A stretch of DNA of 20,391 bases from a virus: the IMG/VR virus record IMGVR_UViG_3300009537_000223, positions 1-20,391 of that record; one strand, given 5' to 3'. The position numbers and the translations under genes were made by a program. Positions 923-17,527 of this stretch are shown piece by piece (within the stretch, counting starts at the first letter, position 1; each line of letters starts with the position of its first letter). Under the pieces are notes generated by a model. That model ran no database searches. It saw only the letters and a list, made by a program, of their open reading frames with translations, and was not told the DNA's origin.

Positions 923-2326
923 TTAGTACCCTCGGACAGTCACGTCGACGAGCGTCGTGGTCTCGACCGCGCCGTCCGACGTGTAGGCACGGAACGCGGG
1001 GCCGCTCGCGGGGCTCTTGTGCGTAGTGACGACGGTCATCGGGTCGTCGGTGCCGACCTGCCGAGCCTCGACCTCGACGATCTTGCGGAAGGTCGCGCGG
1101 GTCGCCGGGGTGTGCCGGGTGCCGCCGTTCGCCGGGATCGAGAGTCCCTCGGTCCGCTCGGTCAGCGGGTCGGACGACACGGTCACGGCGAGCGCGGTCA
1201 CGGTGTACTGCCGTGGGCCACCCGGGACGATGAGGCGGAAGTCGTACCGCCCGACCTCGACGGGCTGGAGACGGCCGGGCCACGGTCGCCAGTACTTCGG
1301 GCTCTGCGCGGTGAACATCGGGTCGCCGCCCGTAGCCGAGAACATCAGCGCGTACGGGTCGGGGTCGAACCACGCGAGCGAGTTGTTGAGCCGGTACTGG
1401 AGTCGCCACCCGACGGCACCCGAGGCGCAGTCGACCGAAAGCGCCGAGCGCGGACCTTCCTCGCCCGCGTGGACGGTGAACGGGAAGACGTACTCCACCC
1501 ACTCGAAGAGGTCGCCGAACATGAGGTCGGCCCCGTCGTCCGCGAACCACGCCGCCCCGTCGCCCCACGTCTCGCCGAACATGAGCGCGTCGGGGTCGAG
1601 CGGGAACATCGGCGAGTCGCCGTCGGCGCTCATCCACGGCTCGATGCCGGACGGGAACATCGGCTCGGGTGCGGTCGAGAGGGCGCTAGCCGTGAGCACG
1701 CCGCCGCTCGATGTCCCGCCCGTGAGCGTGCCGTCGGCGAAGTCATTGGCCGCGTGGTCGACCGTCCGGATCGTGTACTCGCCCCGGTCGTCGATCGGCC
1801 CCCGGTGGGTCATCAGCGTGAGCGGTGGTCCTTCGTTGTCGTCCCAATCGACGGGCACGCCGAGCAGCGTGCGCGGACCCTTGGGCACCCGGCAGAGCAG
1901 GAACGGCCAGTCCGTGAAGATGTCCTCGTGCGCCTTCTCCGCGGTGTTCCACCCGATCGTCCCGCCTTGGTGGACGCCGGGCGCGTGGCGCAAGCGGTAG
2001 CCCCGCAGGTCGACGACCTCGATGTCGATCTCGCCCGTGACGCAGTCGCCCTTGGTGAGCCGCAGCGAGGCGAGCGCCGGCGGGGCGGTGCCGTCCTTCA
2101 CGATCAGCGTGGCGAGGATCTCGCGCCACCCGCTGATCGCGCCGGTGTCGGGGTCGACGAAGCGGCAGCGAACGTCGTAGTACTCCCCGAGTTCGAGTCC
2201 CTCGATCACGAAGCCGCTCTCGCTCGCCAGCGGGCGCTCGGGGTGCGAGCGCCACTGCACGGCGCGGTCGTCGTCGAGGTCGTCGGCGGTCGGGGTCGGG
2301 CGGTACTCGATCTCGTAGTACAGCAT
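923..2326 (-). CDS. Tail-tip protein, probable C-terminal half of the gpJ-like host-specificity protein, 467 aa
   Basis: The first 75 residues look like the second half of a fibronectin type III domain: LYYEIEYRP is strand C-like, then FVIEGLELGEYYDVRCRF and an SGW ending. The upstream gene ends in RGVRVRFQSPGVAV, which looks like the first half of the same domain. Together the two products total 1300 aa, about the size of a lambda gpJ-type protein. Residues 220-340 carry a spaced series of six Met-Phe dipeptides (residues 223, 240, 249, 269, 328 and 337), mostly in a PMF or ALMF context with nearby Trp, Asp and Gly. The rest is beta-rich and probably external. The ATG at 2326 shares one base with the upstream stop (TGATG), so it is likely translated by termination-reinitiation or, less likely, by frameshifting. 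The role in receptor contact is inferred from position. Confidence 0.65.
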   Translation of the reverse strand: MLYYEIEYRPTPTADDLDDDRAVQWRSHPERPLASESGFVIEGLELGEYYDVRCRFVDPDTGAISGWREILATLIVKDGTAPPALASLRLTKGDCVTGEIDIEVVDLRGYRLRHAPGVHQGGTIGWNTAEKAHEDIFTDWPFLLCRVPKGPRTLLGVPVDWDDNEGPPLTLMTHRGPIDDRGEYTIRTVDHAANDFADGTLTGGTSSGGVLTASALSTAPEPMFPSGIEPWMSADGDSPMFPLDPDALMFGETWGDGAAWFADDGADLMFGDLFEWVEYVFPFTVHAGEEGPRSALSVDCASGAVGWRLQYRLNNSLAWFDPDPYALMFSATGGDPMFTAQSPKYWRPWPGRLQPVEVGRYDFRLIVPGGPRQYTVTALAVTVSSDPLTERTEGLSIPANGGTRHTPATRATFRKIVEVEARQVGTDDPMTVVTTHKSPASGPAFRAYTSDGAVETTTLVDVTVRGY

Positions 2327-4827
2327 CAGACGGCCACCCCGGGCGACTGGAAGCGGACGCGGACGCCGCGCCGGACGCTGCCCGCGCCCCCGTTGCGCTC
2401 ACGGAGGCTCGACGACGTTGCACTGAGGACGCGGGGCGGGTTGAGCGCGGGCGGCTGGATCACGGGCGGGATGGTGATCTGCGGGGAGTACGCGGGGATC
2501 GTGGACGTGGACGCGGTCAGAACGCCGGGCGCTGCGTCGACGAGCGTCAGGCGTGCCCCGAGGTCTCCCGTCGGCTCGATCTCCTGCACGATCAGGTCGA
2601 CCGACTCCGTGCCCGCGACGCCGAACAGGAACAGGTCGCCCGCCTCCGGGACCGACGCGGAGTCGATCGGCGTCGTGAACGTGATCGTCGTCTGGTTGCC
2701 CGCGTCCGTGTCGACGAGCGCGTAGACGGTCGCGCCGTTGCTCTTGCGGAAGCGGCAGGCGTAGGACGCGGCGGCCATCGGGCACGCCTGATCGAGCGTG
2801 GCGGTCAGCACGTCGCCGCCGCCGTTGAGCGTCGTCGACAGCACGCGACCCTGCGCGAGCCCCTGGAGGACGACATCGTGCGCGAACTTGACCCAATCGC
2901 CGCGGATGCAGTCGAGGTGCTCGAACGTCGTCTCGACGATGTACTTCTCCGGGCGGAGGCGGAGTTGCGCGAGGTGTCGCCGCCCGAGCTTGTACGCCTG
3001 ACTGTGGCTCGTGATGCCCGGCATGTCGAGCAGCTCGAACGTGGTCGCGGTCGTCGGCGTGAACCCGTCGTCGGGCACAATCGCCTGCGTGTCGAGCCAG
3101 CCCGACTCGGGGTCGACGAACTGGACCTTAAACGCTTCGGGCTTCGTGATGTACGCCCGCTCGGAGTGGAACGCGATGACGTTGCGCGGCGTGAAGTGCT
3201 GCACGGGAGCGCCGCTCAGGTCGTTCGCCATGACGACCGAGTGGAGCCCGTCCTGCATCGCGGGTGACGCGAAGCCAGCCCCCGCGATCTGCCGCAGGAT
3301 GTCCCGCACCGTCGAGCGACCCTGCGTCACGGTGTTGAACTCGAAGCCGTTGGTGATGCAGTCCGCCGACCACGTCTGGAGGTTCGTCAGGTTGATCGCG
3401 CCATCCGCCACAGGCCGCTTGTTCGCGTCGCCCTGGAGGACGTGGCGGTAGAGCGCGGCGGGGTTGCTCGTCGGTCCCTGCACCCAGCTCGACCCGTTGT
3501 CGTAATTGAGGATGTTCGTCTGCACGACGGCATTAAACGAGTCGATCAGTCGGGAGAACTCGCCCGTGATCTTCACCTTCATCGCGACCGTACAGAGGTT
3601 GCTCAGGTTGTGGACCGTGCCCGCGCGGGTCACCAGCATGGACGCCCAGTCGGTGACATCGCTGATCCCGAGCGTGCCCCCGGGGTTGCTGATCCGCCGC
3701 ACCTGGACCTCGTATGTCCCCTCGATGACGGAGACGCTTCGCTTCGTGTAGACCGACGACGCGGTCTGATCGGTCATCTTGATCAGTTCGCCGCCCGCGG
3801 GGGTCGTCCACGTCGTCGCTCCGACCGCACGGTAGCGCCAGCCCATGCGTACGGTTGCGCGCTTGTTCTTCGTCGTGTCGCGCCAGATGAGCCCCTGCGG
3901 ACAGCCGACGATTATCGTGATGTTCGTCGCGCGTTCGATCGTCGTCTGCGTGACCGCGTTCCCCCACCCGGCCGAATAGCGCAGCCGCTTCGCAACGATC
4001 GTCTCCTGCACGTTCGTCGCGAACAGCGTGTGCGCGGCGTCGGTGCTCGTGCCCGCGCGCATCTCCATCTGGACCACGTTACCGTCGACCCGCGTGCCGT
4101 TGACGACCCGCCCGCCGAAGGCGTCCGTGTTGGCGAAGAACGAGCCCGTGTAGTAGAGGCTCGCGTCCGACGTCATAAGCGGCTCGTCGCCGATCTTGAG
4201 TTCGGAGATGTCGAGCTTCCCGTACCCGAACGTGAACAGCGCGTGCTGGTAGAGCTTGCCCCCCTCGACGGTCGTGTACTGCCGCGCGGCGTGAAGTGGG
4301 AAGAAGCGGTGCTTCCCGAGGACCTGCGGCACCGGGGCGTAGGCGTCGAAGTAGTTGTGGCCGCCTGTGATCGTGCGGCGGACGCCGGGGGTTGACTCAT
4401 CGTTCGGCGACTCGCCGGGCGGCATCAGCGCCTGCATGAGCAGGGATACCCCGTAAACGAACGCCGCCGTGACTGCAAGGGCGACGGCCGAGATGATGGC
4501 CGTGGTGGCGATGATCCCGAGCGACGCCGCGCCGATCACGTTGGTAACCGCCACGCCGATAGCGATCGCACCCGTAATGACCCCCGGTCGCTGCGACACG
4601 ATCAGCGACTGCCCGCCGGTCGGGACCGTCGTCCGCCACTCGTCGGGCGCGATGATCTGCCCGTCGAGCGAGACCGCGAGCGCGGCCGGGTCGATCTCCG
4701 TCGCGGCCACCACGTCGGCCACCGTCCAGTCCCGCGCCGGGATCTGCGCGAGGCGGCGGTACTCCGGGAGGGGGACAGCCGGGAGGATGGCGACGGAGAC
4801 GGGGCGGGTCTCGAGTAGTGTGGTCAC
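2326..4827 (-). CDS. gpI/gpJ-like tail-tip host-specificity protein, 833 aa
   Basis: This is a central tail-tip protein of the lambda gpJ (TipJ) type, which forms the tail tip and helps determine host specificity. Residues 1-80 resemble the small N-terminal fold of gpI-like tail assembly proteins, including an AVSLDGQIIAPDEW segment. Residues 83-135 are strongly hydrophobic and Gly/Ala-rich, as in gpI and fused I-J proteins. The long middle part contains J-like stretches such as QVLGKHRFFP, FTFGYGKLDISELKIGDEPL, a QIAGAG region and a RRHLAQLRLRPEKY segment. The C-terminus ends in the first strands of an FN3-like domain. The start is GTG at 4827, with GGAG 9 bases upstream inside a junction motif. 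An in-frame extension to 4983 is possible but its translation is charged, low-quality sequence that runs antisense to the membrane gene, so I rejected it. Confidence 0.85.
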   Translation of the reverse strand: MTTLLETRPVSVAILPAVPLPEYRRLAQIPARDWTVADVVAATEIDPAALAVSLDGQIIAPDEWRTTVPTGGQSLIVSQRPGVITGAIAIGVAVTNVIGAASLGIIATTAIISAVALAVTAAFVYGVSLLMQALMPPGESPNDESTPGVRRTITGGHNYFDAYAPVPQVLGKHRFFPLHAARQYTTVEGGKLYQHALFTFGYGKLDISELKIGDEPLMTSDASLYYTGSFFANTDAFGGRVVNGTRVDGNVVQMEMRAGTSTDAAHTLFATNVQETIVAKRLRYSAGWGNAVTQTTIERATNITIIVGCPQGLIWRDTTKNKRATVRMGWRYRAVGATTWTTPAGGELIKMTDQTASSVYTKRSVSVIEGTYEVQVRRISNPGGTLGISDVTDWASMLVTRAGTVHNLSNLCTVAMKVKITGEFSRLIDSFNAVVQTNILNYDNGSSWVQGPTSNPAALYRHVLQGDANKRPVADGAINLTNLQTWSADCITNGFEFNTVTQGRSTVRDILRQIAGAGFASPAMQDGLHSVVMANDLSGAPVQHFTPRNVIAFHSERAYITKPEAFKVQFVDPESGWLDTQAIVPDDGFTPTTATTFELLDMPGITSHSQAYKLGRRHLAQLRLRPEKYIVETTFEHLDCIRGDWVKFAHDVVLQGLAQGRVLSTTLNGGGDVLTATLDQACPMAAASYACRFRKSNGATVYALVDTDAGNQTTITFTTPIDSASVPEAGDLFLFGVAGTESVDLIVQEIEPTGDLGARLTLVDAAPGVLTASTSTIPAYSPQITIPPVIQPPALNPPRVLSATSSSLRERNGGAGSVRRGVRVRFQSPGVAV

Positions 4828-4831
4828 GGCG

Positions 4832-4852
4832 TCACGCTCCGAGCCTGCCTGA
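4832..4852 (-). repeat. Junction motif copy 2 (before gpJ-like gene)
   Basis: On the minus strand it reads CAGGCAGGCTCGGAGCGTGA with one leading T. It matches the other copies at GCAGG, CGGAGC and TGA. Its GGAG is the ribosome binding site of the GTG start at 4827. It also overlaps the upstream region of the plus-strand membrane gene. Confidence 0.6.
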
Positions 4853-4893
4853 ACCTTGGCGGGCTCGGGCGGTTGCACGTCGCGGAGGTGTCG

Positions 4894-5076
4894 ATGACGG
4901 ATAGCACACTCGGATTTCTGGGGATGATCTTCGGGGGGTTCATCGCGCTCGTGGTCTCGCTCTTGATCGCGAACGCCGCGCACGGCGGCGACGGCGACAC
5001 CGGGTGGGCCTGGGGCTTCCTCGGTCCGGTCGGCTGGATCATCGCGGCGATCAAGGGGATCCAGCCCCCACCGTAG
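4894..5076 (+). CDS. Small two-helix membrane protein, 60 aa, moron-like
   Basis: This is the only convincing plus-strand gene. It begins MTDSTLGFLGMIFGGFIALV. A first membrane segment spans about residues 6-26, followed by a short polar loop rich in Gly and Asp (HGGDGDTG), then a second segment of about residues 37-53 containing the pattern GFLGPVGWIIAAIKG. That GP-Gly-W-Ile pattern is common in small bacterial membrane proteins. The ATG at 4894 has GGAGG at 4884-4888, five bases upstream. About 90 percent of codons end in G or C, which fits real coding in this GC-rich DNA. It fills the only long gap between minus-strand tail genes (4828-5050) and overlaps the 3' end of the peptidase gene by 26 bp. 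Position and orientation suggest a moron, possibly a lysogenic-conversion or superinfection-exclusion protein; function is inference. No clear promoter or terminator was seen. Confidence 0.65.
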   Translation: MTDSTLGFLGMIFGGFIALVVSLLIANAAHGGDGDTGWAWGFLGPVGWIIAAIKGIQPPP

Positions 5077-5479
5077 CGAGCGTCTTGTGCCGGAACGCGG
5101 GACCGATGCGCAGCGCCGCCCACGGCATCCGGTCGAAGCGCGACGTCTGCACGCCGTTCTCCCGGACGTGGTAATGCAGCATCCAGCCGGGCGCGATGAC
5201 GACCGCGATGTGGATGTCTCGCGGCATGTCCGGGATCTCGAACGTCAGGCAGTCCCCGGGGACGGGCTCGCCGTCGTGCGGCTCCCACTGCGCCGCTTCG
5301 TCGTCGAGAGCGAGCGTGATCTTCCCGAGGCGGTCCAGGGCGTCGAGGTCGTCAAGCCCCGCGAGAGGCGCGATCTCGGCTCCCCACTGCTCGCGCAGCA
5401 CTTCGCGCACGAACGGATAGCAGCCGTGCGGACCGTAGCGCCGGCCGCGGTACTTCTCGATCCAGCCGGGGAGGTTCAT
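5051..5479 (-). CDS. NlpC/P60-family tail-tip peptidase (gpK-position), 142 aa
   Basis: This is a cysteine peptidase of the NlpC/P60 family carried at the tail tip, where such enzymes are thought to cut peptidoglycan cross-bridges during DNA entry or to act in tip assembly. The likely nucleophile is Cys20 in the motif GPHGCYPFVREVL. A PGDCLTFEI segment at residues 74-82 matches the family's PGD-hydrophobic-F strand. His90 in DIHIAVVI is the likely general base, and His102 or His104 in MLHYHV the third residue. At 142 aa it is a free NlpC/P60 domain without the N-terminal JAB-type domain of lambda gpK. The ATG at 5479 overlaps the previous stop as ATGA, indicating coupling to the gpL-like gene. 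The last 26 bp are overlapped by the plus-strand membrane gene. Confidence 0.85.
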   Translation of the reverse strand: MNLPGWIEKYRGRRYGPHGCYPFVREVLREQWGAEIAPLAGLDDLDALDRLGKITLALDDEAAQWEPHDGEPVPGDCLTFEIPDMPRDIHIAVVIAPGWMLHYHVRENGVQTSRFDRMPWAALRIGPAFRHKTLATVGAGSP

Positions 5480-5952
5480 CGGTCGAACCCCGCGGGGAAC
5501 GCGAGCGGCGTGAAGTCCTGCCCCGGGTAGGAGTCGTCGAACACCGCATCGGGAGCGAGCCCGAGAACGACCTGCGTCTCGCTGATGTTCGCCGACACCA
5601 TGCGCAGGTTCGGGAACGTCCGCACGATCGTATCCGGAGCGGAGAGGCGGACGATCTCCAGCGTGATGGTCGGTGGCGATGTCACGGAGCGGAAGGCAAC
5701 CGTCGTCGCCTGGTCGGTGTTGTCGAGCGTGAGCGTCGCCGCGGCGGGTCCGTCCCGATCCGCGGGCAGCGCAGCGGAGAACGCGAGCGCGGTGTAGGTG
5801 TCGCCGCCACTGACCACGTCCGCGAACGTGTTGACGTAGCGCAGCGTCGAGACGAAGTCGGCGTGCGTGACGGTGACGAGCACCACCCACTCCCCGGTCG
5901 TCGTGCCCGCGTAGAGTTCCGCCTTCTCCGCCGAGGACAGGCCCGCGCTCAC
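5476..5952 (-). CDS. Minor tail protein, DUF1833 / gpL-like, 158 aa
   Basis: This is a tail-tip protein of the DUF1833 kind, occupying the place of lambda gpL between the M-position protein and the peptidase. It helps build the baseplate-like tip at the end of the tape measure. The sequence begins around SAGLSSAEKAELYAG, continues with WVVLVTVTHADF, and is beta-rich with a C-terminal PGQDFTPLAFPAGFDR. Two GTG starts are possible. I chose 5952, because it makes a 4-base GTGA overlap with the upstream stop and has GGAGG eight bases upstream. The alternative at 5967 would add only five residues. Unlike lambda gpL I see no cysteine cluster for an iron-sulphur centre. Confidence 0.75.
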   Translation of the reverse strand: MSAGLSSAEKAELYAGTTTGEWVVLVTVTHADFVSTLRYVNTFADVVSGGDTYTALAFSAALPADRDGPAAATLTLDNTDQATTVAFRSVTSPPTITLEIVRLSAPDTIVRTFPNLRMVSANISETQVVLGLAPDAVFDDSYPGQDFTPLAFPAGFDR

Positions 5953-6326
5953 GTCACCCGCCTCCACGTCATGCGGACGTTCCCGTCGCGCTGCGCTGCG
6001 GCGTCGCCTCCCTTCGAGAAGTCGTACTCGGGACCGCTGACGATCAGGAACGTGGCAGTCGAACCGTCGACGGGATCAGGGAAGCCGGAGATGGTGGACG
6101 ACCCGCCCGAGAGCGTGGTGACGACGAACGTGACCAGGTCCGCGCGCTGCTCGCCGGTCAGGTAGAAGGCCATCTCGTAGGTGCCAAACGAGCCCGACAT
6201 GACGCGCCGCGCCTGGGGCGGGCCACGCTGCATCTCGGTCACGAGGGACTGCTGCGTCGGGATGTACCGGAACCCTGCGAGTAGGGGGGCGAGTGGGAGC
6301 GAGGCGGGCCAGGGTTGCGCAGCCAT
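5949..6326 (-). CDS. Minor tail protein, gpM-position, 125 aa
   Basis: This gene directly follows the tape measure gene, where lambda has gpM, and probably encodes a tail-tip adaptor joining the tape measure end to the tip ring. Recognisable stretches are the opening PWPASLPLAPLLAGFRYIP, then GPPQARRVMSGSFGTYEM and a C-terminal MTWRRVT, a pattern typical of small phage tail-tip proteins with a compact beta fold. The ATG at 6326 abuts the tape measure stop (TAGATG), and a GGAGAGGAGG ribosome binding site lies within the end of the tape measure gene. The family assignment rests on position and general resemblance; I cannot name a domain with certainty. Confidence 0.7.
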   Translation of the reverse strand: MAAQPWPASLPLAPLLAGFRYIPTQQSLVTEMQRGPPQARRVMSGSFGTYEMAFYLTGEQRADLVTFVVTTLSGGSSTISGFPDPVDGSTATFLIVSGPEYDFSKGGDAAAQRDGNVRMTWRRVT

Positions 6327-8099
6327 CTATCCTCCTCTCCTGCCGCGGCGCTGGAGCCCGTGGCGTGAGAGCGTGCGCGAGATCCGCCCACCGCTCTCGA
6401 TGCTGCCGATCACGACGTCCTCGATCACGACGTTCAGCTCCGGGCCGCGCGGCCCCATGCGCTCGGTCGACGACGCCTTGACGCCCGACGCTCGGTTGTC
6501 GATGTTCACGATGACATCGCCGCCCATCGGGGACTCGCCCACCGCGCGCTCCGCGTCGAGGCGGATGCCGGAGGCCGTGGTCGCCGTGAGGCCGAGCGCA
6601 GTCCCGATGACGTTGGTGAGCTGCTTCTGGATGGCGATGCGGATGAGGTCCGAGATGATCGACGCGGCCATCTGCTTGAATGCGTCGGCGGCCGTGATCG
6701 TGCCCGCCGCGAAGTCCATGATGGCGTCGGTCATGTTGCTCGCGATGACGTCGCGCGTCTGCTCTGCGGACCGCTGCACTTCCTCCATCTGGGAGCGCAT
6801 CGCGTCCATCTGCTGATCGAGCGCCTCGCCGCGTGCGTCGAAGTCCGCCTTGGTCTGCTTGTCGAGCCCAGCCTGCCGGACCTGTGCGATCTGCTGATCC
6901 CGCAGGCGCTCGAGTTCGACGGTGCTCTCGCCGTACTTCTTCGCCTCCTCGATCAGCGCCGCGTGCCGCCGGCGGATCTCCTCGACCTGCTGCTCCGTCG
7001 AGGATCGAGTGACCTGGGAGATGTCGAAGGCGAGTTGCGACTGCGCCTTGTGGATGTCCCGCACCACGTCGGCGTGCTCGTCGCGCCACTCCTTCCACGC
7101 CTTCGTGCTCTCGTCGAGATCCTTGAGCGTCTCGTCGAACCCTGCGCGGCGGTGCGCCTCGCCGATGGGCGTCTGTCCGCTCCGCGACTCGCCAGCGCCG
7201 GTTCCGCCGCCGAGATCGAAGGGGAGCGGGCGGTCGATGGGCTTACGGAGCCGAGCGTTCGCCGCCGCGATCCGCTCACGAGTCTGCTTCGCGGCCTCGG
7301 CTTCGAGCGCCGCGATCTCGCGAAGGATCAGGCGGAGTTGTATCCTGAGCGTCTCGGCCTCTTCGCCTGTGGCCTTGATGTTCTTACGGAAGCGATCCGT
7401 CGCGTCGACGGTGTCCTCGACGACGACGTACGTGAAGTCGAGCATGGCCTTGCGCCGCGCGAGCGCGCCCTCTTCCCCGGCGTCGGGGGCGAGGAACGGC
7501 TTACCGCTCAGGCGCGCGAGGATGCGGTCGCGATCCTCGGTTAGCCCCTGGATGTCCGTGCCGACGCCGCCTCCGAGAGCGCGCGCGGCGAGTGCCCGCT
7601 TGTCGAGGCTGCGCGCGAGTTCGAGGTTGCGCTCGGTCAACTTCGTGAGAGCCGTCTCCAGCTCCTTCGCCTCCGCTGCCGCCGTGCTCGTCTTGCTCGC
7701 GAACAGCGCGATAGCGGTGGTCGCGAGCGCGATGGCAAGCGAAACGCCAGTGAAGCCCGACGCGGCCAGCGACGCCATCCCTGTGCCTACGGCGGTGACC
7801 GCCGCGTTACCAGTCGCCCCGAACGCTCGCATGGACGCGGTCGCCGCTGCGATCGCGCCGGGTGCGCCGCGCGTTTGCTCCGTGAACTTGCCCATCGCCG
7901 TCGTCGTCGACGCGGTGGCCGTCCTCATCGACGCCATGCCCGACGCGCCCGAGCGGACAGCGCGCGCCGCCTTGCCCATGTCGGCCTTGGTCGTCGCGGA
8001 GAACTTCGCGACCGAAGCGCCCGCCTCGGTCATGCCCTTCTTGATGCCCGCGACGTTGGCGGTGCCCTCGATGTGGAGAGAGCCTACGGACTCAGCCAT
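6327..8099 (-). CDS. Tail tape measure protein, lambda type, 590 aa
   Basis: This protein sets tail length and lies inside the tail tube before ejection. It follows the frameshifted chaperone pair, as expected. The N-terminal 95 residues are helical and rich in Ala, Met, Lys and Thr. A hydrophobic stretch at about residues 95-135 (including SLAIALATTAIALFASK) could cross a membrane. The middle is coiled-coil-like, with many charged residues and repeated TRERIAAANARL and EIRRRHAALIEEAKKYG patterns. The C-terminal part contains MTDAIMDFAAGTITAADAF and IISDLIRIAIQKQLTNVIG, which resembles the lambda-type tape measure C-terminal domain. At 590 aa a tail of very roughly 90 nm is expected (inference from about 0.15 nm per residue). 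The ATG at 8099 overlaps the chaperone stop by 8 bp, with an AGGAGAGGG ribosome binding site. Confidence 0.92.
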   Translation of the reverse strand: MAESVGSLHIEGTANVAGIKKGMTEAGASVAKFSATTKADMGKAARAVRSGASGMASMRTATASTTTAMGKFTEQTRGAPGAIAAATASMRAFGATGNAAVTAVGTGMASLAASGFTGVSLAIALATTAIALFASKTSTAAAEAKELETALTKLTERNLELARSLDKRALAARALGGGVGTDIQGLTEDRDRILARLSGKPFLAPDAGEEGALARRKAMLDFTYVVVEDTVDATDRFRKNIKATGEEAETLRIQLRLILREIAALEAEAAKQTRERIAAANARLRKPIDRPLPFDLGGGTGAGESRSGQTPIGEAHRRAGFDETLKDLDESTKAWKEWRDEHADVVRDIHKAQSQLAFDISQVTRSSTEQQVEEIRRRHAALIEEAKKYGESTVELERLRDQQIAQVRQAGLDKQTKADFDARGEALDQQMDAMRSQMEEVQRSAEQTRDVIASNMTDAIMDFAAGTITAADAFKQMAASIISDLIRIAIQKQLTNVIGTALGLTATTASGIRLDAERAVGESPMGGDVIVNIDNRASGVKASSTERMGPRGPELNVVIEDVVIGSIESGGRISRTLSRHGLQRRGRRGG

Positions 8100-10757: not shown

Positions 10758-11095
10758 TCGGTCGGGTTCTCCGCGGGCGACGCCGAGGCGAGCACGTCGA
10801 CGTACTCGCGGAGTCCCTGCCCGCCGGGCACCGCGCCCTCGATGTTGTACTGCTCGCCGCGCCACTCCAGCCGCCACGACGCCTCGATCCGCCGGTAGCG
10901 CATCCGGAAGGACGTCGTGGCGCTGGCGAAGCGGTGATCGCCCGTGAACGCCTCGCGCTGGCTGATCGGCGTGACGCGCGCGCGGACGGTCGCCACGAGC
11001 ACCCACGTCTCGAGCATCATGCCGGAGCCGGTGGTCGAGAGGCCGTCCTCTTGGCGAAGGATGGTCACCCGCTCGCGCAGGTCGCCCGCGCGCAC
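10754..11095 (-). CDS. Head-tail adaptor, SPP1 gp16-like, 113 aa
   Basis: This is a head-completion (stopper) protein of the phage head-tail joining family, which closes the connector beneath the portal after DNA packaging. The sequence opens RAGDLRERVTILRQEDG, the hallmark N-terminal strand, then a W-x-x-V-A-T-V-R-A-R strand (TWVLVATVRARV), a helix-loop and FRMRYRRIEASWRLEWRGEQYNI; the last motif matches the family's R-hydrophobic-hydrophobic-W-x-G-x-x-Y strand. The usual length is about 110 aa, as here. The GTG start at 11095 shares one base with the stop of the upstream connector gene (TAGTG). A much longer in-frame extension upstream is antisense-like shadow of that gene and was rejected. 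Confidence 0.85.
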   Translation of the reverse strand: MRAGDLRERVTILRQEDGLSTTGSGMMLETWVLVATVRARVTPISQREAFTGDHRFASATTSFRMRYRRIEASWRLEWRGEQYNIEGAVPGGQGLREYVDVLASASPAENPTD

Positions 11096-11691
11096 TACCA
11101 GCCCCCCGAGACGTAGGACGACAGGAGCCGCTGCGCCGCGAGCGGGACCGTGGTCTGGATCGTGCCGACCAGCCCTTCCTCCCGTCGCTCGTACATCTCG
11201 CCGCACAGCAGCAGCGTCGCCTGGCGCAGCACGCGCGGCACCGTCGCCGCCGTCGACCCGTAGCCTGCGACGAAGACGACCGTGACCGCGAACCGCTGAC
11301 CGCGGGTCGTCGGGTACGTCACGTCGTACGCGAGCGAGACCGAGCCGCGCTCTGACCGTGGACCGGCGGGGGCGTTGACGACGTACTGGCTGGTCGCCCA
11401 CGTCTGCGTCGTGCCCGTGCCGTCGACGTACGTGATCGACGTGACGGACTGGAGCGGGGCCATCGGCAGATACCACAGGTCGGAGCCCGGGAAGCCGTCG
11501 AGCTTGAGCGTCCACGTCTGCGTCAGCATCGCGCGCGACGTGTGAGCCTCGACGGTCTCGCGCGCGGCCGTGATGATCGCGGTGAGGTAGGCGTCGTCGC
11601 CGTGGTCGTCGCTGTCGATGCGACAGTGCTCGCGCACTTCGTCGATCGTCAGCGGCTCGACAGTCGGGGCGGTCGTGAGCGTGAGGCTCAC
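11095..11691 (-). CDS. Head-tail connector protein, phiE125 gp8 / gp6-like, 198 aa
   Basis: This protein forms the connector ring that binds below the portal. It contains the family's opening strand and helix (TTAPTVEPLTIDEVREHCRI, then DAYLTAIITAARETVEAHTS), the QTWTLKLDGFP motif and the APLQSVTSITYVDGTGT strand, all marks of the phiE125 gp8 family. The C-terminal helix VPRVLRQATLLLCGEMYERR and the LLSSYVSGGW ending also match. The start is GTG at 11691, one base after the upstream stop (TGACGTG), with a GGGAACGA-like ribosome binding site. It overlaps the adaptor gene by one base, so the two are probably coupled. Confidence 0.87.
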   Translation of the reverse strand: MSLTLTTAPTVEPLTIDEVREHCRIDSDDHGDDAYLTAIITAARETVEAHTSRAMLTQTWTLKLDGFPGSDLWYLPMAPLQSVTSITYVDGTGTTQTWATSQYVVNAPAGPRSERGSVSLAYDVTYPTTRGQRFAVTVVFVAGYGSTAATVPRVLRQATLLLCGEMYERREEGLVGTIQTTVPLAAQRLLSSYVSGGW

Positions 11692-11692
11692 G

Positions 11693-12127
11693 TCACTCGT
11701 TCCCGTGCGCGACGCCCTCGACGTAGAGGTAGATGACGCCGTTCTTCGAGTTGCCCGCGTTGGTCACCGCGACCGTGAGGACAGAGCATACGGCGGGGTG
11801 CTGCGCCTTCGCGAGCGGCGTCGCGTCCGTGTCGAGCACGAAGAAGTACGTCTCCTCGGTCGTCGTCGTGTGCCGGTTCTGGAGGTCGTCGTCGCAGCCC
11901 GTGAGGACGTTGACGGACTCCGAGTCGGTCAGCACGATGTCGTAGTTGGCGGTCGGCGCGGCGGCACCGGGGTCGGTCACCGCCTTGACGAGCCGACCGC
12001 TGATCTTGTTCGCCGTCGTGCCGCTGACCGCGCCCGTCGTGTCGTCCGACGTCCACGTCCCGATGACGCGCGTGATCGGACCACCGGGCACCCGGTCGTA
12101 GGTGAAGGCCATCGAGGAACCGGCCAT
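11693..12127 (-). CDS. Putative virion structural protein, 144 aa
   Basis: I know no characterised member, but similar small proteins occur among the head or connector genes of many siphophages. The sequence contains GPITRVIGTWTSDDTTGAVSG, KISGRLVKAVTDPGAAAPTA, ANYDIVLTDSESVNVLTG and, at the end, SVLTVAVTNAGNSKNGVIYL, a series of beta strands suggesting a small beta sandwich. Its position between the beta-helix gene and the connector gene suggests a decoration or neck role, which is inference. ATG at 12127 is preceded by GAGGAGG; an alternative ATG at residue 6 (12112) would remove five residues. It starts 13 bases after the beta-helix stop and ends one base before the next GTG. Confidence 0.68.
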   Translation of the reverse strand: MAGSSMAFTYDRVPGGPITRVIGTWTSDDTTGAVSGTTANKISGRLVKAVTDPGAAAPTANYDIVLTDSESVNVLTGCDDDLQNRHTTTTEETYFFVLDTDATPLAKAQHPAVCSVLTVAVTNAGNSKNGVIYLYVEGVAHGNE

Positions 12128-12140
12128 CGGTCAGTCCTCC

Positions 12141-13073
12141 TCAGTCGGCGTCGAGTGCCGGGGAACCACCCGCGCCCTTGACGATCGCGATGGTGCCCTT
12201 GGTGTTCGTCACGAAGTTCTCGCAGTGGTTCATCGAGTCGGCCACCGCGTTCGCCGCGACGGTCGCGCCGCTCGCCTGGCCGCGCGTGCCCGCGATGATG
12301 CCGGTCGTCCCGGTCACCACTTCGAGGTACGGCTCGCCCGCGTCGGTGTTGTGGACGTAGTTGTCGATCACGTTGAAGTGCTGGCACAGCGTCGTGATGT
12401 TCGAGATGCACGCCAGCGAGAAGTCGCCCATGAACTCGCAGTTACGCACGGTCGCGTTGTTGACCGCGCCAACGAGCTGGACGCCCACGGACGCGCCGGC
12501 CACGGCGGGCTCGGCGAGGAAGCGGCAACCCTCCACCGTCGGGCGGTGCGCGCCGACGTTGATGTTCAGCGAGTTGATGAAGTCGAAGCCGGTCGTCGCG
12601 CCCCACTGGAACTCGCAGTTGCGGACGGTGCAGTCGAGGCCCGCCGCTTCGACGTCGAGCGCGACCACGACGGCCGAGATGCCCGCGACGAAGACGAGGT
12701 TCTCGATCCACACGTTCGCCGCGCCGACCGCTGCGGTGGAGTCCGTGGCGCTGTACGTGAAGACGGGGCGCAGGCGTCCCCACCCGAGGCCGATGATGCG
12801 GATGCCCGCGACGTCGGCATCGAAGCCGTCGGCCGCCGCGATGGTCTCGGCGTGGCCGGGCATCACGTAGATCGTGTCGCCCTTGGACGCGGTGCACAGG
12901 CCGATGGCGTAGTCGAGCGTGGCCGTCGGGCTGTCGGGGTTCTGCCCGTAGCCTGCCGCGTCGGTGCCCGTGCCGGAGTGGCAGAAGAAGACCGAGCCGG
13001 TGCTCAGGCCCTCGTTGACGACGGCGAACATGCCGCCGCTCTGCTTGCGAACGAAGAGTTCTGTCTTCGCCAT
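12141..13073 (-). CDS. Right-handed parallel beta-helix virion protein, 310 aa
   Basis: The sequence shows the regular turns of a right-handed parallel beta-helix. After an N-terminal segment with DYAIGLCTASKGDTIYVMPG (residues 54-73) come repeated strand-turn units: GIRIIGLGWG, VWIENLVFVAG, CTVRNCEFQWG, PTVEGCRFLAE and ATVRNCEFMGD, with Cys, Asn and Val stacked at matching places. Such folds occur in pectate lyases and in phage tailspikes and fibres, but I see no conserved catalytic signature and no signal peptide. It is encoded in the head module, between the capsid and connector genes, so it may be a capsid-surface spike, a decoration or a neck fibre; that is inference. The ATG at 13073 has AAGGAGA upstream. 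A strong hairpin lies 33 bases before the start. Confidence 0.75.
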   Translation of the reverse strand: MAKTELFVRKQSGGMFAVVNEGLSTGSVFFCHSGTGTDAAGYGQNPDSPTATLDYAIGLCTASKGDTIYVMPGHAETIAAADGFDADVAGIRIIGLGWGRLRPVFTYSATDSTAAVGAANVWIENLVFVAGISAVVVALDVEAAGLDCTVRNCEFQWGATTGFDFINSLNINVGAHRPTVEGCRFLAEPAVAGASVGVQLVGAVNNATVRNCEFMGDFSLACISNITTLCQHFNVIDNYVHNTDAGEPYLEVVTGTTGIIAGTRGQASGATVAANAVADSMNHCENFVTNTKGTIAIVKGAGGSPALDAD

Positions 13074-13105
13074 GTCTGCGTCTCCTTGTCAGCGTCTGAG
13101 GCGAA

Positions 13106-13130
13106 GGGGGCGGCGCGTGCCGCCGCCCCC
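13106..13130 (-). terminator. Strong GC hairpin between head genes
   Basis: A perfect 10-bp stem (GGGGGCGGCG paired with CGCCGCCCCC) encloses a 5-base loop. It lies in the 71-base gap between the 163-aa gene and the beta-helix gene. On the minus-strand transcript it is followed only by TTCGCC, not a U-run, so it is not a classical intrinsic terminator. It may slow transcription, protect upstream mRNA ends from 3' exonucleases, or reduce downstream expression. Confidence 0.55.
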
Positions 13131-13144
13131 GTTGTCGGTCAGGG

Positions 13145-13636
13145 TTAGGCGATGGCCGTGACGGGAACGAGGCCCGGGTAGCGGGGCTCGGAGAGGATGC
13201 AGATGACGCCGGCGACGACGGGGTCGTTCGTCGACTCCACCGACTTGAGCGCCACGAACGGGTTGCCCGCGTCCGCGCCCTCGATGTCGTCGGCGCTGAC
13301 CTCGCAGGCGTACATGTAGTTCGAGCCCGCGGTCATCGTGAGGCCCGTCGACGCGGTTGCCGTCGAGGCGCCCCAGGTGTCGACCGTGGTCGACGACGCG
13401 CAGACGCGCGACCGGAACGCCACGGCTCCGGCACCCGTGCCCGCCGCGGCGGACGCCGCGAGGATGGTGATGGTCGCGTCCGCGGTGCCGCTCGTCGCGA
13501 CGCCCGTGTGGACCAGGAACGTCGCGCGGCGGTAGTTCGCGAGCGAGATGTAGTCGGTGGTCAGCGTGCCCGCGAGCGCGTCGGCGACAGGGTACTTGAC
13601 GCTCACGATGTGGTGATCGTGGAGGAAGTCCATCAT
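13145..13636 (-). CDS. Putative virion protein next to the major capsid gene, 163 aa
   Basis: No named family is recognised. It opens MMDFLHDHHIVSVKYPVADA, continues with DYISLANYRRATFLVHTGVA and ATITILAASAAAGTGAGAVA, and ends in SEPRYPGLVPVTAIA. The protein is beta-rich, acidic in its C-terminal half (SADDIEGADAGNP) and lacks transmembrane segments. Placed 12 bases behind the major capsid gene, it could be a capsid decoration protein, which is inference from position and composition. Either ATG of the first two codons can serve; an AGGAG ribosome binding site lies 9 bases before the first. The gene is followed by the GC hairpin at 13106-13130, so the capsid and this protein form a separate expression block. 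Confidence 0.7.
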   Translation of the reverse strand: MMDFLHDHHIVSVKYPVADALAGTLTTDYISLANYRRATFLVHTGVATSGTADATITILAASAAAGTGAGAVAFRSRVCASSTTVDTWGASTATASTGLTMTAGSNYMYACEVSADDIEGADAGNPFVALKSVESTNDPVVAGVICILSEPRYPGLVPVTAIA

Positions 13637-13648
13637 GGGTCGAGTCTC

Positions 13649-14998
13649 CTAGGCGCGGGTTGCGAGCGTGAGGATCGGGGAGAGCGTGTTGGTGCCCTTG
13701 AAGGGCGTGATCGCGGAGGGGAGCCAGGGCTGTCCGTCCATCTCGAATATGAACCTGAATGCCGATTGAGCAAAATCAAACTTCAAGTGGATCGAGACCG
13801 CGCTGTCGACCATGCCGACGACGGCTACGCCGTAGGCGTTGAGGTTCACGAGGCAGATGTCGCCGGAGGTCCCGAGCGTCGAGCAGTACTCGATCGGGAT
13901 GACCGGCAGGCCCTTGAGGCGAGCGTTCGGCGTGTCGGCCACCCCGCCCGCAGGCAGGTAGACCGGGACGCCGCCCGTGCCGACGGTGGCGGAGAGCTGT
14001 TCGAGTGCGGGCTCGACGTCCTGGTTGATGAACCAGACCGCGCCGCTGCGCCAGTTGGCGTGGCAGCGCGCGTACATCTTGTCGATGTTCTCCTTCACGA
14101 CGGTTGCGGCCGCCTGGCCGGTCTCCTTCGCGATGTCGAGCGTGGCCGCGTGGCCGAGGAAGCCGAGCGGCTTACCAGCGCCGTCGCCACGGAAGATGCC
14201 GTCGCCGACCTTGAAGTTGATCTCGTCGGCCGCGCCCGCGGTCAGGACCGCGCTCGCCGTGCCGGGGGCCTTGCGCAGCATCTTGTCGCTGACGAAGCCG
14301 AAGACGTACAGCTCGTTGGGCTGGAACTTGACCTCGCGGTACTTCGGCGTGCTCGACGTCAGCGACGTCAGCTCGGCCTTCCAGTAGCCGCGGATGCCGC
14401 CGTGGCGCGAGCCGTCGGCGCGCGAGGTCTCGTTGATCGCGGGGATCGTGAGCGACTCGACGCCCGTGGGGAACGGGATGTTGTCCGTGTACCCGAGCAG
14501 GGAGTTCGACGCCATCCGCGTGCGATCCCAGATCTCCGTCGAGAACGCGGGCGGGAGGAAGACGCCGCCGTCCTCCTTCACGCTCACCTGCTGGCCCGTG
14601 CCCGCTGCGGCCATGAGCCGCTGACTCGTGCGCGGGTTCTGGCCGGCGTCCTGCACCGCCATCGCGAAGTCGCCGAGGTTGGCGAAGCCTCGCTTGGGGT
14701 CGTCGTCGGTCATCTGCCGGACGCTCGACGTGATCGCCACGCTGCCGCGCTCGATCACCGCGGCCGCCTCGGCGTTGGCGATCTCGCGGGCGAGGACCGA
14801 GCGGCGGTCCGCGATGGCGGTCAGCCCCACGGCGATCTCGTCGTCGCGCGTCTTCTCGTCGTCGGTGAACGCCTGACCCTCGCGGGCGCTGACCGTGGCG
14901 AAGAGCGTGGTGGCCTCCGCGCGCAGTTCGCGCTCCTCGGTGTCGAGCGTGGCGGCGTCCTCGCGCATGTGTCGGAGGTCTCGGGCGATGGCTGGCAT
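13649..14998 (-). CDS. Major capsid protein, HK97 fold, with N-terminal scaffold domain, 449 aa
   Basis: This is the shell protein of the head. The first approximately 105 residues are charged and coiled-coil-like (MREDAATLDTEERELRAEAT and related helices), the delta-domain type that acts as built-in scaffold and is removed by the protease encoded just upstream. From about residue 140 the HK97-fold part is seen: VFLPPAFSTEIWDRTRMAS, SLTIPAINETSRADGSRHGG in the E-loop area, FGFVSDKMLR, the spine-helix/DEINFKVGDGIF pair and FLGHAATLDIAKETGQAAAT. The P-domain and A-domain end with LPVIPIEYCSTLGTSGDICL and WLPSAITPFKG. The ATG at 14998 has GAGGAAC seven bases upstream. Its junction with the protease gene holds a copy of the junction motif. 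A 47-base AT-rich patch near the 3' end is noted separately. Confidence 0.93.
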   Translation of the reverse strand: MPAIARDLRHMREDAATLDTEERELRAEATTLFATVSAREGQAFTDDEKTRDDEIAVGLTAIADRRSVLAREIANAEAAAVIERGSVAITSSVRQMTDDDPKRGFANLGDFAMAVQDAGQNPRTSQRLMAAAGTGQQVSVKEDGGVFLPPAFSTEIWDRTRMASNSLLGYTDNIPFPTGVESLTIPAINETSRADGSRHGGIRGYWKAELTSLTSSTPKYREVKFQPNELYVFGFVSDKMLRKAPGTASAVLTAGAADEINFKVGDGIFRGDGAGKPLGFLGHAATLDIAKETGQAAATVVKENIDKMYARCHANWRSGAVWFINQDVEPALEQLSATVGTGGVPVYLPAGGVADTPNARLKGLPVIPIEYCSTLGTSGDICLVNLNAYGVAVVGMVDSAVSIHLKFDFAQSAFRFIFEMDGQPWLPSAITPFKGTNTLSPILTLATRA

Positions 14999-15032
14999 GT
15001 CGGTTCCTCGCGGGTGTGCGGGTGATCGGGGG

Positions 15033-15053
15033 TCAGGCTCTGTCCCTGCTTAC
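15033..15053 (-). repeat. Junction motif copy 5 (inside the end of the protease gene)
   Basis: On the minus strand it reads GTAAGCAGGGACAGAGCCTG plus A. Unlike the other copies it is translated: it encodes the last residues VSRDRA of the protease and its final TGA is the stop codon. It is 35 bases before the capsid ATG, which has its own ribosome binding site. Confidence 0.75.
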
Positions 15054-16130
15054 GTAGCGGAGACGGCGGCGGCGGAAGTCGAGATCGGAGACGGGGGCGG
15101 GGGGCGGGTCATGGTCCGGGTTCTCCGTGCTGGCTTCGACCCACACGGGCTTGCCGACTGGCTCGCTGGTCCTGGTGTCGGCGTCCTCGGACACGACGCG
15201 CATGTCCTGTACAAGCTCGTCGCCCGCAGCGATGTGCGCCGCCACGTCCCTGCGCTTCCTCACGCGGGCACCGCCCGCGAGTCGCTCGACCGTCGCCTCC
15301 AGTGTGGCAACGCGGTCGGCCATGCCCGCCTTGACGGCTGCCTTGCCGCGCACCATGCGGCCCTCGCCGTAGCCCGAGCGGACGGCGGACGGGGAGACGC
15401 CGCGCCCCTTCGCCACATCGGCGACGAACTGCGCATAAGCCTCATCGACGTGCGCCTGCATCTCTGCCTTCGCTTCGTCGCCGAGTGGCTCGAACGGGTT
15501 GCCCTCGGTCTTGTGCTTGCCCTTGCTGACGATCGTGACGTCGAGCCCCTCGATCTCCAGCGCCTTGGACATGTCGGCGTGCATCGAGTAGACGCCGACC
15601 GAGCCGACCTCACCCGATGGCGTGATGACGATCTCGTCGGCCTGCGCCGCGAGCCAGTACGCCGCCGACGCGGCCATCGAGTTGGCGACAGCGACGACTG
15701 GCACGGACAGCGCGCGCATCGCGTCCGCCGCCTCCTGCACGCCGTCGACCGTGCCGCCGGGGCTGTCGATGTCGAGCACGACCGCGCGCACGTTCGGGTC
15801 GTTGTCGAGCTGCTGGAGTTGCGCGATGAGTGCCTGCGTCGACGCGGTGCCGCTCGCCATGTCGCCGCCGCGGTGGACGATCGTCCCGACGACCGGAACG
15901 ACGGCGACAACGCCACGGCCGGCGCTGCGCCCGAGCGCCGCTGCCGCGACGGCGTGAGCATGGACGCTCGCGCGACCCTCGGCGGTCAGTGCCGCAACGG
16001 CCTTGCGTGTGATCTTGCGTCCTGCCGCGCGACGCCCCAGGATGCCGGAGATGAGCGCCCCGGCGGAAGGGAGGATGGCCCAGGGCGTGCGCTGACAGTA
16101 CGCGAGGATGCGGTCGATCTTGCGGCTCAT
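15033..16130 (-). CDS. Prohead maturation protease, S49 (SppA/lambda gpC-like) family, 365 aa
   Basis: This is the head protease that removes the scaffold domain of the major capsid protein during procapsid maturation. The S49 features are clear: a strand-turn VVAVVPVVGTIVHRGGDM, an AVVLDIDSPGGTVDGV loop (residues 117-131, the oxyanion-side glycines), the probable nucleophile Ser155 in SMAASAAYWLA, the segment PSGEVGSVGVYSMHADMSKA, and the probable general base Lys207 in SKGKHKTEGNPF. The C-terminal part is charged and Arg-rich. No nested scaffold gene is evident; scaffolding is instead fused to the capsid protein. The ATG at 16130 overlaps the portal stop by four bases (ATGA). An upstream extension to 16331 would be portal shadow. 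Confidence 0.9.
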   Translation of the reverse strand: MSRKIDRILAYCQRTPWAILPSAGALISGILGRRAAGRKITRKAVAALTAEGRASVHAHAVAAAALGRSAGRGVVAVVPVVGTIVHRGGDMASGTASTQALIAQLQQLDNDPNVRAVVLDIDSPGGTVDGVQEAADAMRALSVPVVAVANSMAASAAYWLAAQADEIVITPSGEVGSVGVYSMHADMSKALEIEGLDVTIVSKGKHKTEGNPFEPLGDEAKAEMQAHVDEAYAQFVADVAKGRGVSPSAVRSGYGEGRMVRGKAAVKAGMADRVATLEATVERLAGGARVRKRRDVAAHIAAGDELVQDMRVVSEDADTRTSEPVGKPVWVEASTENPDHDPPPAPVSDLDFRRRRLRYVSRDRA

Positions 16131-17527
16131 GCGGTGCTCCCGTTGCCGTTGGTGCCGAGGCGGTTGGCGAGCGCGAACGGGTTGGCCGCCTTGTCGTCGT
16201 CGTCCGCCTTGCCCGGCTTGGGCGGCGGAGTGCCGGGACCACGGCCAGGCTGCGCCGGCGCGGGCGCTCCCTGCGTCGCGGGCTTCTCGTCGCCCCACGG
16301 AACCGGCGGCAGGTTCTCGCGCGCTCGCCATTCGTTCGCCGTGAGCGCGGTGCCGTTGTGCATGATCTGGTTCGACTGCGCGCGGGAGACGGCGTCGCCG
16401 CGCAGCAGGCCGCCGACAGCGAACTCCGCGAATGCGTCATCGAGCACGAGGTCGCGCTTGATCGACTGCTCCCACAGCGTGAGCCACGGCATGAGACCGT
16501 GCGTGACGTACGCGAGCGCCTCCTGCTCGACGTTGGCGTATGTCCCGTGGCTCAGGTCGCCGAGCATCGTGGGCGGCACCCCGAACCAGCGGGCGACCTC
16601 GCTCACCTGGTGCACGCGCGTCTCGAGGAACTGCGCGTCCTCGTGGTTCATGCCGACGCTGACCGCCGTCATGCCCTTGTCCATCATCGGAGCGCCGCCC
16701 CACCCGTCAGGGCCGGACGTCATCGCGCGGAACGACGCCTCGTACTCCTTGCGCTTCTCGACGCTGATGTCGTTCGGCGAGGTCAGGATGAACGACGGCT
16801 TGGGCGTCTGGCTGAACTGCCGCGCCCCGAACTCCTCGGTGCTCATCGTCAGCCCGAGCGACGTGCGCGCGACGCCGATAACGGACACGCCGGACGGGTC
16901 CTCCGGGTCCGGGTTGAACCCCCTCAGGTGGAAGACCTCATCCTGCGTCAGCCGCTCCTCTGTCCCGTTGGGCTTGCGGTAGCGGTAGAGCACGCGGCCG
17001 GTGTCGAGCAACTCGGGGCGGATGCGGACCGTGGGCAGCGGTTCGAGCCGGTCGACGAAGCCGCGCGCGCCGGAGACGATGCGCGCATAGGCGTTGCCGC
17101 GAAGCAGGAGATTGGCGGTCATCTGCTGCCGGAACTCGAACGAGGTCTGTCGCGGGTTGGGCTGCTTGCCGAGCACCTCGGCGAGCGAGTCGCGGCGTCG
17201 CGCCTTGCCGCCGGGTCGCCCCTCCGCGCGGTCGGGCAGGAGCGTGAAGAGATGCAGCGGGAGTTGGGCCACGTCGTCCGATAGCAGTCGAACTGCGCGG
17301 TAGACCGCGCTGATCGTCAAGGCGCTGTCGGCGGTTACCGACTGCCCCGCGGCTGATCTTGAAAGGCTCGCTCCCGCTGCCGAGTACCAGAAGTCGTCCC
17401 ACCACGGCTTTGCCGCCGTCGAGCCCCCAGCCATCGCCAGCGTGCGCCGCATCGGTGTGCCATTACGCAGGCTGCGCCGGTACTCGTCGGCGACGCGGCG
17501 TGGACGGGCAGGCAGGGCGTGGGACAC
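16127..17527 (-). CDS. Portal protein, HK97 family, 466 aa
   Basis: The dodecameric portal forms the vertex through which DNA is packaged and ejected. Family marks are a TISAVYRAVRLLSDDVAQLP helix followed by LHLF, the segment FEFRQQMTANLLLRGNAYAR, VRIRPELLDTGRVLYRY, the DEVFHLRGFNPDPEDPSGVS turn, LGLTMSTEEFGARQF, and VEQEALAYVTHGLMPWLTLW with an R-D segment that follows. The C-terminal approximately 70 residues are Pro/Gly-rich and flexible. The start is GTG at 17527, 21 bases after the upstream stop. A junction motif copy lies between them. The first 30 residues are variable and basic, and alternative starts downstream (for example residue 26) are possible, so the exact N-terminus is uncertain. 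Confidence 0.93.
   Translation of the reverse strand: MSHALPARPRRVADEYRRSLRNGTPMRRTLAMAGGSTAAKPWWDDFWYSAAGASLSRSAAGQSVTADSALTISAVYRAVRLLSDDVAQLPLHLFTLLPDRAEGRPGGKARRRDSLAEVLGKQPNPRQTSFEFRQQMTANLLLRGNAYARIVSGARGFVDRLEPLPTVRIRPELLDTGRVLYRYRKPNGTEERLTQDEVFHLRGFNPDPEDPSGVSVIGVARTSLGLTMSTEEFGARQFSQTPKPSFILTSPNDISVEKRKEYEASFRAMTSGPDGWGGAPMMDKGMTAVSVGMNHEDAQFLETRVHQVSEVARWFGVPPTMLGDLSHGTYANVEQEALAYVTHGLMPWLTLWEQSIKRDLVLDDAFAEFAVGGLLRGDAVSRAQSNQIMHNGTALTANEWRARENLPPVPWGDEKPATQGAPAPAQPGRGPGTPPPKPGKADDDDKAANPFALANRLGTNGNGSTA

Follow-up and report, generated by a model that had tools for sequence, protein, structure and literature searches.

The window, as we call the whole stretch of DNA analyzed, is an IMG/VR viral contig of 20,391 bases (69% GC) that carries the head and tail genes of a long-tailed phage, all on the minus strand. 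In order of transcription, its tail module comprises genes for a tape-measure protein (6327-8099), a 125-aa protein (5949-6326), a DUF1833 protein (5476-5967), an NlpC/P60-like tail-tip peptidase (5051-5479) and a J-like tail-tip protein (2326-4827), followed by genes at 923-2326 and 125-895. The peptidase was assigned by alignment and by matches to Pfam NLPC_P60 (E 0.0016, under the curated cut-off) and to a PHROG minor tail protein (E 2.5e-4), and J by alignment and a match to the PHROG central tail fiber J (E 2e-74); the closest named relatives of J are encoded by Rhizobium and Bradyrhizobium phages, at about 29-34% identity. Neither an integrase nor a repressor was identified in this 20-kb fragment. 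The head genes (11095-16331) resemble those of L017, with 53-61% identity in two proteins, and those of L162. J of the window phage finds no match in L017; compared with these two, the phage appears to be a mosaic of head and tail modules. A capsid query retrieved one phage, with a different tail, while a terminase scan yielded 29 loci, in none of whose searched DNA was the tail module found.

On the plus strand, positions 4894-5076 encode a predicted two-helix membrane protein of 60 aa, with the translation MTDSTLGFLGMIFGGFIALVVSLLIANAAHGGDGDTGWAWGFLGPVGWIIAAIKGIQPPP*. A GGAGG ribosome-binding site (4884-4888, plus strand) lies five bases from the ATG, a type of motif that also precedes many of the minus-strand genes, and the GC content by codon position (0.59/0.51/0.90) is within the range of those genes. 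The gene shares 26 bases with the 3′ end of the peptidase gene, tail to tail. The initial annotation had reported the frame, its GGAGG, its roughly 90% GC at third codon positions and a partial overlap with the peptidase gene, all of which can be seen in the sequence. It had also described two clean hydrophobic segments, which is borne out for the first and less so for the second: AlphaFold2, run on the single sequence, predicts helices at residues 2-29 and 37-54 (mean pLDDT 73), and the Kyte-Doolittle peak reaches 2.6 in helix 1 but 1.4 in helix 2, which is only moderately hydrophobic.

The GC content of third positions cannot tell the two strands apart, and we rejected it as an argument for the plus strand: a second open frame, at 4824-5288 on the minus strand, has its third positions in common with the plus frame. 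We therefore trained a codon model on the phage's remaining genes; it gave a score of +20.7 for the plus frame versus +4.2 for the minus frame. As a control, we scored 460 overlapping 60-codon windows from known genes, each with its own gene left out of the training, and set the score of each true frame against that of the antisense frame with the same third positions. True frames had a mean score of 24.9 (s.d. 8.2) and lost to their antisense partner by 1.9 in the worst case, so codon statistics favor the plus strand. When the segment was simulated 4000 times with a first-order Markov model, an ORF of at least 55 aa arose in 31% of the simulations and an ORF with a Shine-Dalgarno motif in 5.3%, while a codon score of at least 18 was never reached (0/4000; observed, about 20). 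The plus strand is very probably coding at 4894-5076, and the frame is likely translated, giving a helical hairpin of 60 residues in the inner membrane.

The stop codon of the peptidase gene and the start of J are separated by 223 bp (4828-5050), by inspection the longest gap among the mapped minus-strand genes, in agreement with the earlier remark that the 60-aa frame fills a long gap in the minus-strand module. We placed the J start at GTG 4827 by aligning J with seven relatives. Further upstream, the J frame remains free of stops as far as GTG 4983, where a start would leave a gap of 67 bp; its portion upstream of GTG 4827 has a codon score of -19, which is non-coding, and is homologous to no relative. 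As single-protein queries against viral contigs the peptidase and J returned no relatives, and a three-sequence J alignment yielded 78 further J loci from viral contigs. We could locate both genes in 81 relatives, a set that includes several near-duplicates. In these, the peptidase stop and the J start, as placed by homology, are -62 to +68 bp apart, as opposed to 223 bp here; measured to the start codon nearest the peptidase stop, the commonest distance in the relatives is -4. The extra segment at 4828-5050 has no counterpart at this junction in these relatives. An apparent NlpC-J gap of 2.6 kb in L085 was resolved as an insertion inside J, the true gap being 15 bp; this transposon-like element (L085 2520-4990) splits the J gene and is IS66-like by our reading of its ORFs. 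Near-invariant junctions such as NlpC-J offer a simple way to spot insertions without any homologue.

Besides a single gene with its ribosome site, the insert contains a 66-bp leader in which a GC-rich stem-loop can form. The peptidase ends in ATVGAGSP; these residues overlap the plus-strand gene and fall beyond the part that aligns with most relatives, which suggests that the peptidase may have gained a new C-terminal end from the insert. Morons, small cargo genes, are common in phages, and the anatomy of the insert is moron-like: a single phage carries the gene, and its two flanking genes are neighbors in the 81 relatives. A shift in base composition, usual for morons though not required, is absent (68.6% versus 69.4% GC), and no promoter or terminator match was found at the 60-aa gene, the promoter scan covering the sigma-70 type only. 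We describe the segment as a moron-like insertion because a real plus-strand coding gene sits in DNA that is absent from the junction in relatives.

Searches with the 60-aa protein returned little. A tblastn search of phages gave chance matches only (E 7-10), and none were found in plasmids or viral contigs. No match was obtained with PADLOC, Pfam or NCBIfam, and a PHROG family of moron membrane proteins matched at E 0.14 only. No homologue or conserved plus-strand frame was found in any of the related phages examined, although very close relatives may exist outside the records that these searches covered. Genome contigs provided a single match, to the N-terminal hairpin of a Verrucomicrobial protein (62% over 26 residues), where a similar hairpin is followed by zinc ribbons; across 141 genomes of the class of this match, we found weak matches only (E 0.01 or worse).

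The second helix carries the motif LGPxGWI(I/V)A. A DNA pattern for it matched 40 viral contigs, which we sorted by eye: most clear cases are tape-measure-like, a few are N-terminal hairpins and some are apparent antisense artefacts. Helix 2 shares eleven identical residues (GFLGPVGWIIA) with the tape-measure protein of L012, and LGP(V/I)GWI(I/V)A occurs in many other siphophage tape-measure proteins; we accordingly dropped LGPVGWIIA as a family signature. By inspection, the motif is missing from the tape-measure protein of the window phage, and it is also missing from the long ORFs of the J-module relatives. Five proteins (L112, L119, L123, L130 and L002), spanning viral contigs and one bacterial genome, share a recurring N-terminal hairpin with LGPxGWI(I/V)A in helix 2 and varied C-terminal parts, including a zinc ribbon; the L002 hairpin has no Pfam match of its own. 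A profile of such hairpins gave the window protein 11.6 bits in hmmsearch, a score reached by 8 of 20,000 layout-preserving shuffles, with hairpins that were chosen by the motif and are not independent of it; with hhalign, the probability was 90 over 21 columns only, again with a set selected by the motif. We conclude that LGPxGWIIA is a recurrent membrane-segment motif from which no family can be assigned, since it recurs both in tape-measure proteins and in bacterial N-terminal hairpins. The initial annotation had likened this motif to small bacterial membrane proteins; it does recur in bacterial hairpins but is commoner in phage tape-measure proteins.

Taken together, these observations make an orphan moron gene, genuine and coding for a small inner-membrane protein, the most likely reading of the locus. 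Some 223 bp of DNA would have been inserted at the NlpC/P60-J junction, bringing a single coding frame on the opposite strand with its own ribosome-binding site. The gene is probably a cargo gene (moron) lying outside the late tail operon; it would be expressed apart from that operon, and its product would form an inner-membrane hairpin. A possible moron had been proposed before, and a coding frame with a ribosome-binding site in a segment that relatives lack speaks for it, while the absence of a recognized promoter or terminator and, among the relatives examined, of any that carries the gene does not. By analogy, the leading candidate function is to exclude other phages as their DNA enters: made in the lysogen and located at the inner membrane, the protein would act there when other long-tailed phages bring in their DNA, as proposed for HK97 gp15. 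We regard this mode of action as tentative and, on balance, doubtful. The chain as a whole, from insertion through translation to moron, with function left as the leading guess, strikes us as possible, at somewhat less than even confidence. Small opposite-strand genes within late operons are easily overlooked in annotation.

The gene could alternatively be a remnant or passenger that was acquired as coding sequence, from a host or from a different phage, and now serves no function. Its restriction to this phage, the lack of a recognized promoter and the motif-level likeness to bacterial hairpin domains, whose usual further domain (e.g., a zinc ribbon) is missing here, all point in that direction; against it, the frame is intact, its ribosome-binding site is well placed and its codon use is like that of the other genes of this phage, and we consider this reading unlikely. 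It is still less likely that the gene encodes a small membrane protein of the lytic cycle, holin-like or otherwise membrane-disturbing, rather than an exclusion protein. Class II holins have two helices and a charged C-terminal tail, and their genes lie beside that of the endolysin. The size of the protein and its two helices fit this class in outline, and neither another holin nor any lysis gene was identified in the 20-kb fragment, but the gene runs opposite to the late operon and is not beside a recognized lysis gene or endolysin, no charged tail of the usual kind is present at the C-terminus (IKGIQPPP), and the Pfam, PHROG, PADLOC and NCBIfam searches gave no family match.

The insert might also act as RNA or DNA, with the plus-strand ORF incidental. 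The stem-loop at 4839-4868 has 11-nt arms with one mismatch and an 8-nt loop, and separates the two divergent starts. It lies just ahead of both the J ribosome site and the plus-strand gene, and one end touches the GGAG motif of J. Its z score is about -2.7 on either strand, an equally good structure arises in 0.7% of simulated 66-base leaders, and there is no U-tract on either side. The stem-loop could affect translation of J or serve as a regulator site. The same scan returned a strong GC-rich inverted repeat at 13104-13130, in a 71-bp gap between the minus-strand genes 12141-13073 and 13145-13636. The strength of the stem-loop and its reach into the J ribosome site favor a control element of this kind, which would however leave the coding statistics over 180 bases unexplained and matches no Rfam family at a meaningful score, and we judge it improbable that this is all the insert does. 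Finally, a minus-strand protein whose frame ends at 4824 with a stop that overlaps the start of J (GTGA), leaving the plus frame as its shadow, is very improbable: the minus frame is open, it shares the 90% GC third positions and such a stop-start overlap is usual for NlpC-J in relatives, but it would have to lose to the plus frame by 16.5 where no true frame among the 460 control windows lost by more than 1.9, its GC1 would be below its GC2, unlike the genes of this phage, and the protein would be proline/serine-rich with no Pfam or PHROG match.

We return to the orphan moron as the preferred reading, and to how it compares with known systems. The gene of HK97 gp15 is located among tail genes; the window gene also lies within a tail module but, unlike HK97 gp15, on the strand opposite to the tail genes. 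Gp15 is a small predicted inner-membrane protein of a long-tailed phage that provides superinfection exclusion (PMC10883804). The 60-aa protein is likewise a small predicted inner-membrane protein of a long-tailed phage, with no detectable sequence similarity to gp15 in the phage collection; the phage tblastn, Pfam, NCBIfam and PADLOC searches detected no homology to a known exclusion protein. It shares with the LGPxGW hairpins of bacteria and viral contigs the same layout of a helix, a short glycine-rich loop and a second helix with LGPxGWI(I/V)A, but these proteins carry zinc-ribbon or other C-terminal parts, whereas the window protein has no C-terminal domain. Tape-measure proteins have the same helix-2 motif embedded in several hundred residues. 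Conceivably, the hairpin could be a membrane decoy whose helix 2 mimics the tape-measure segment GFLGPVGWIIA and blocks superinfecting phages as they assemble their DNA-entry channel, sparing its own phage because the tape-measure protein of the latter lacks that segment; we give this idea very little credence. The inner membrane is in general a plausible site of action, since the membrane-bound defense protein SNIPE associates with tape-measure proteins during DNA entry (PMC13190303), a parallel that speaks to general plausibility only and is not evidence about the 60-aa protein. If exclusion is indeed its function, a minimal membrane hairpin would be added to the short list of proteins known to act on DNA entry that depends on the tape-measure protein.
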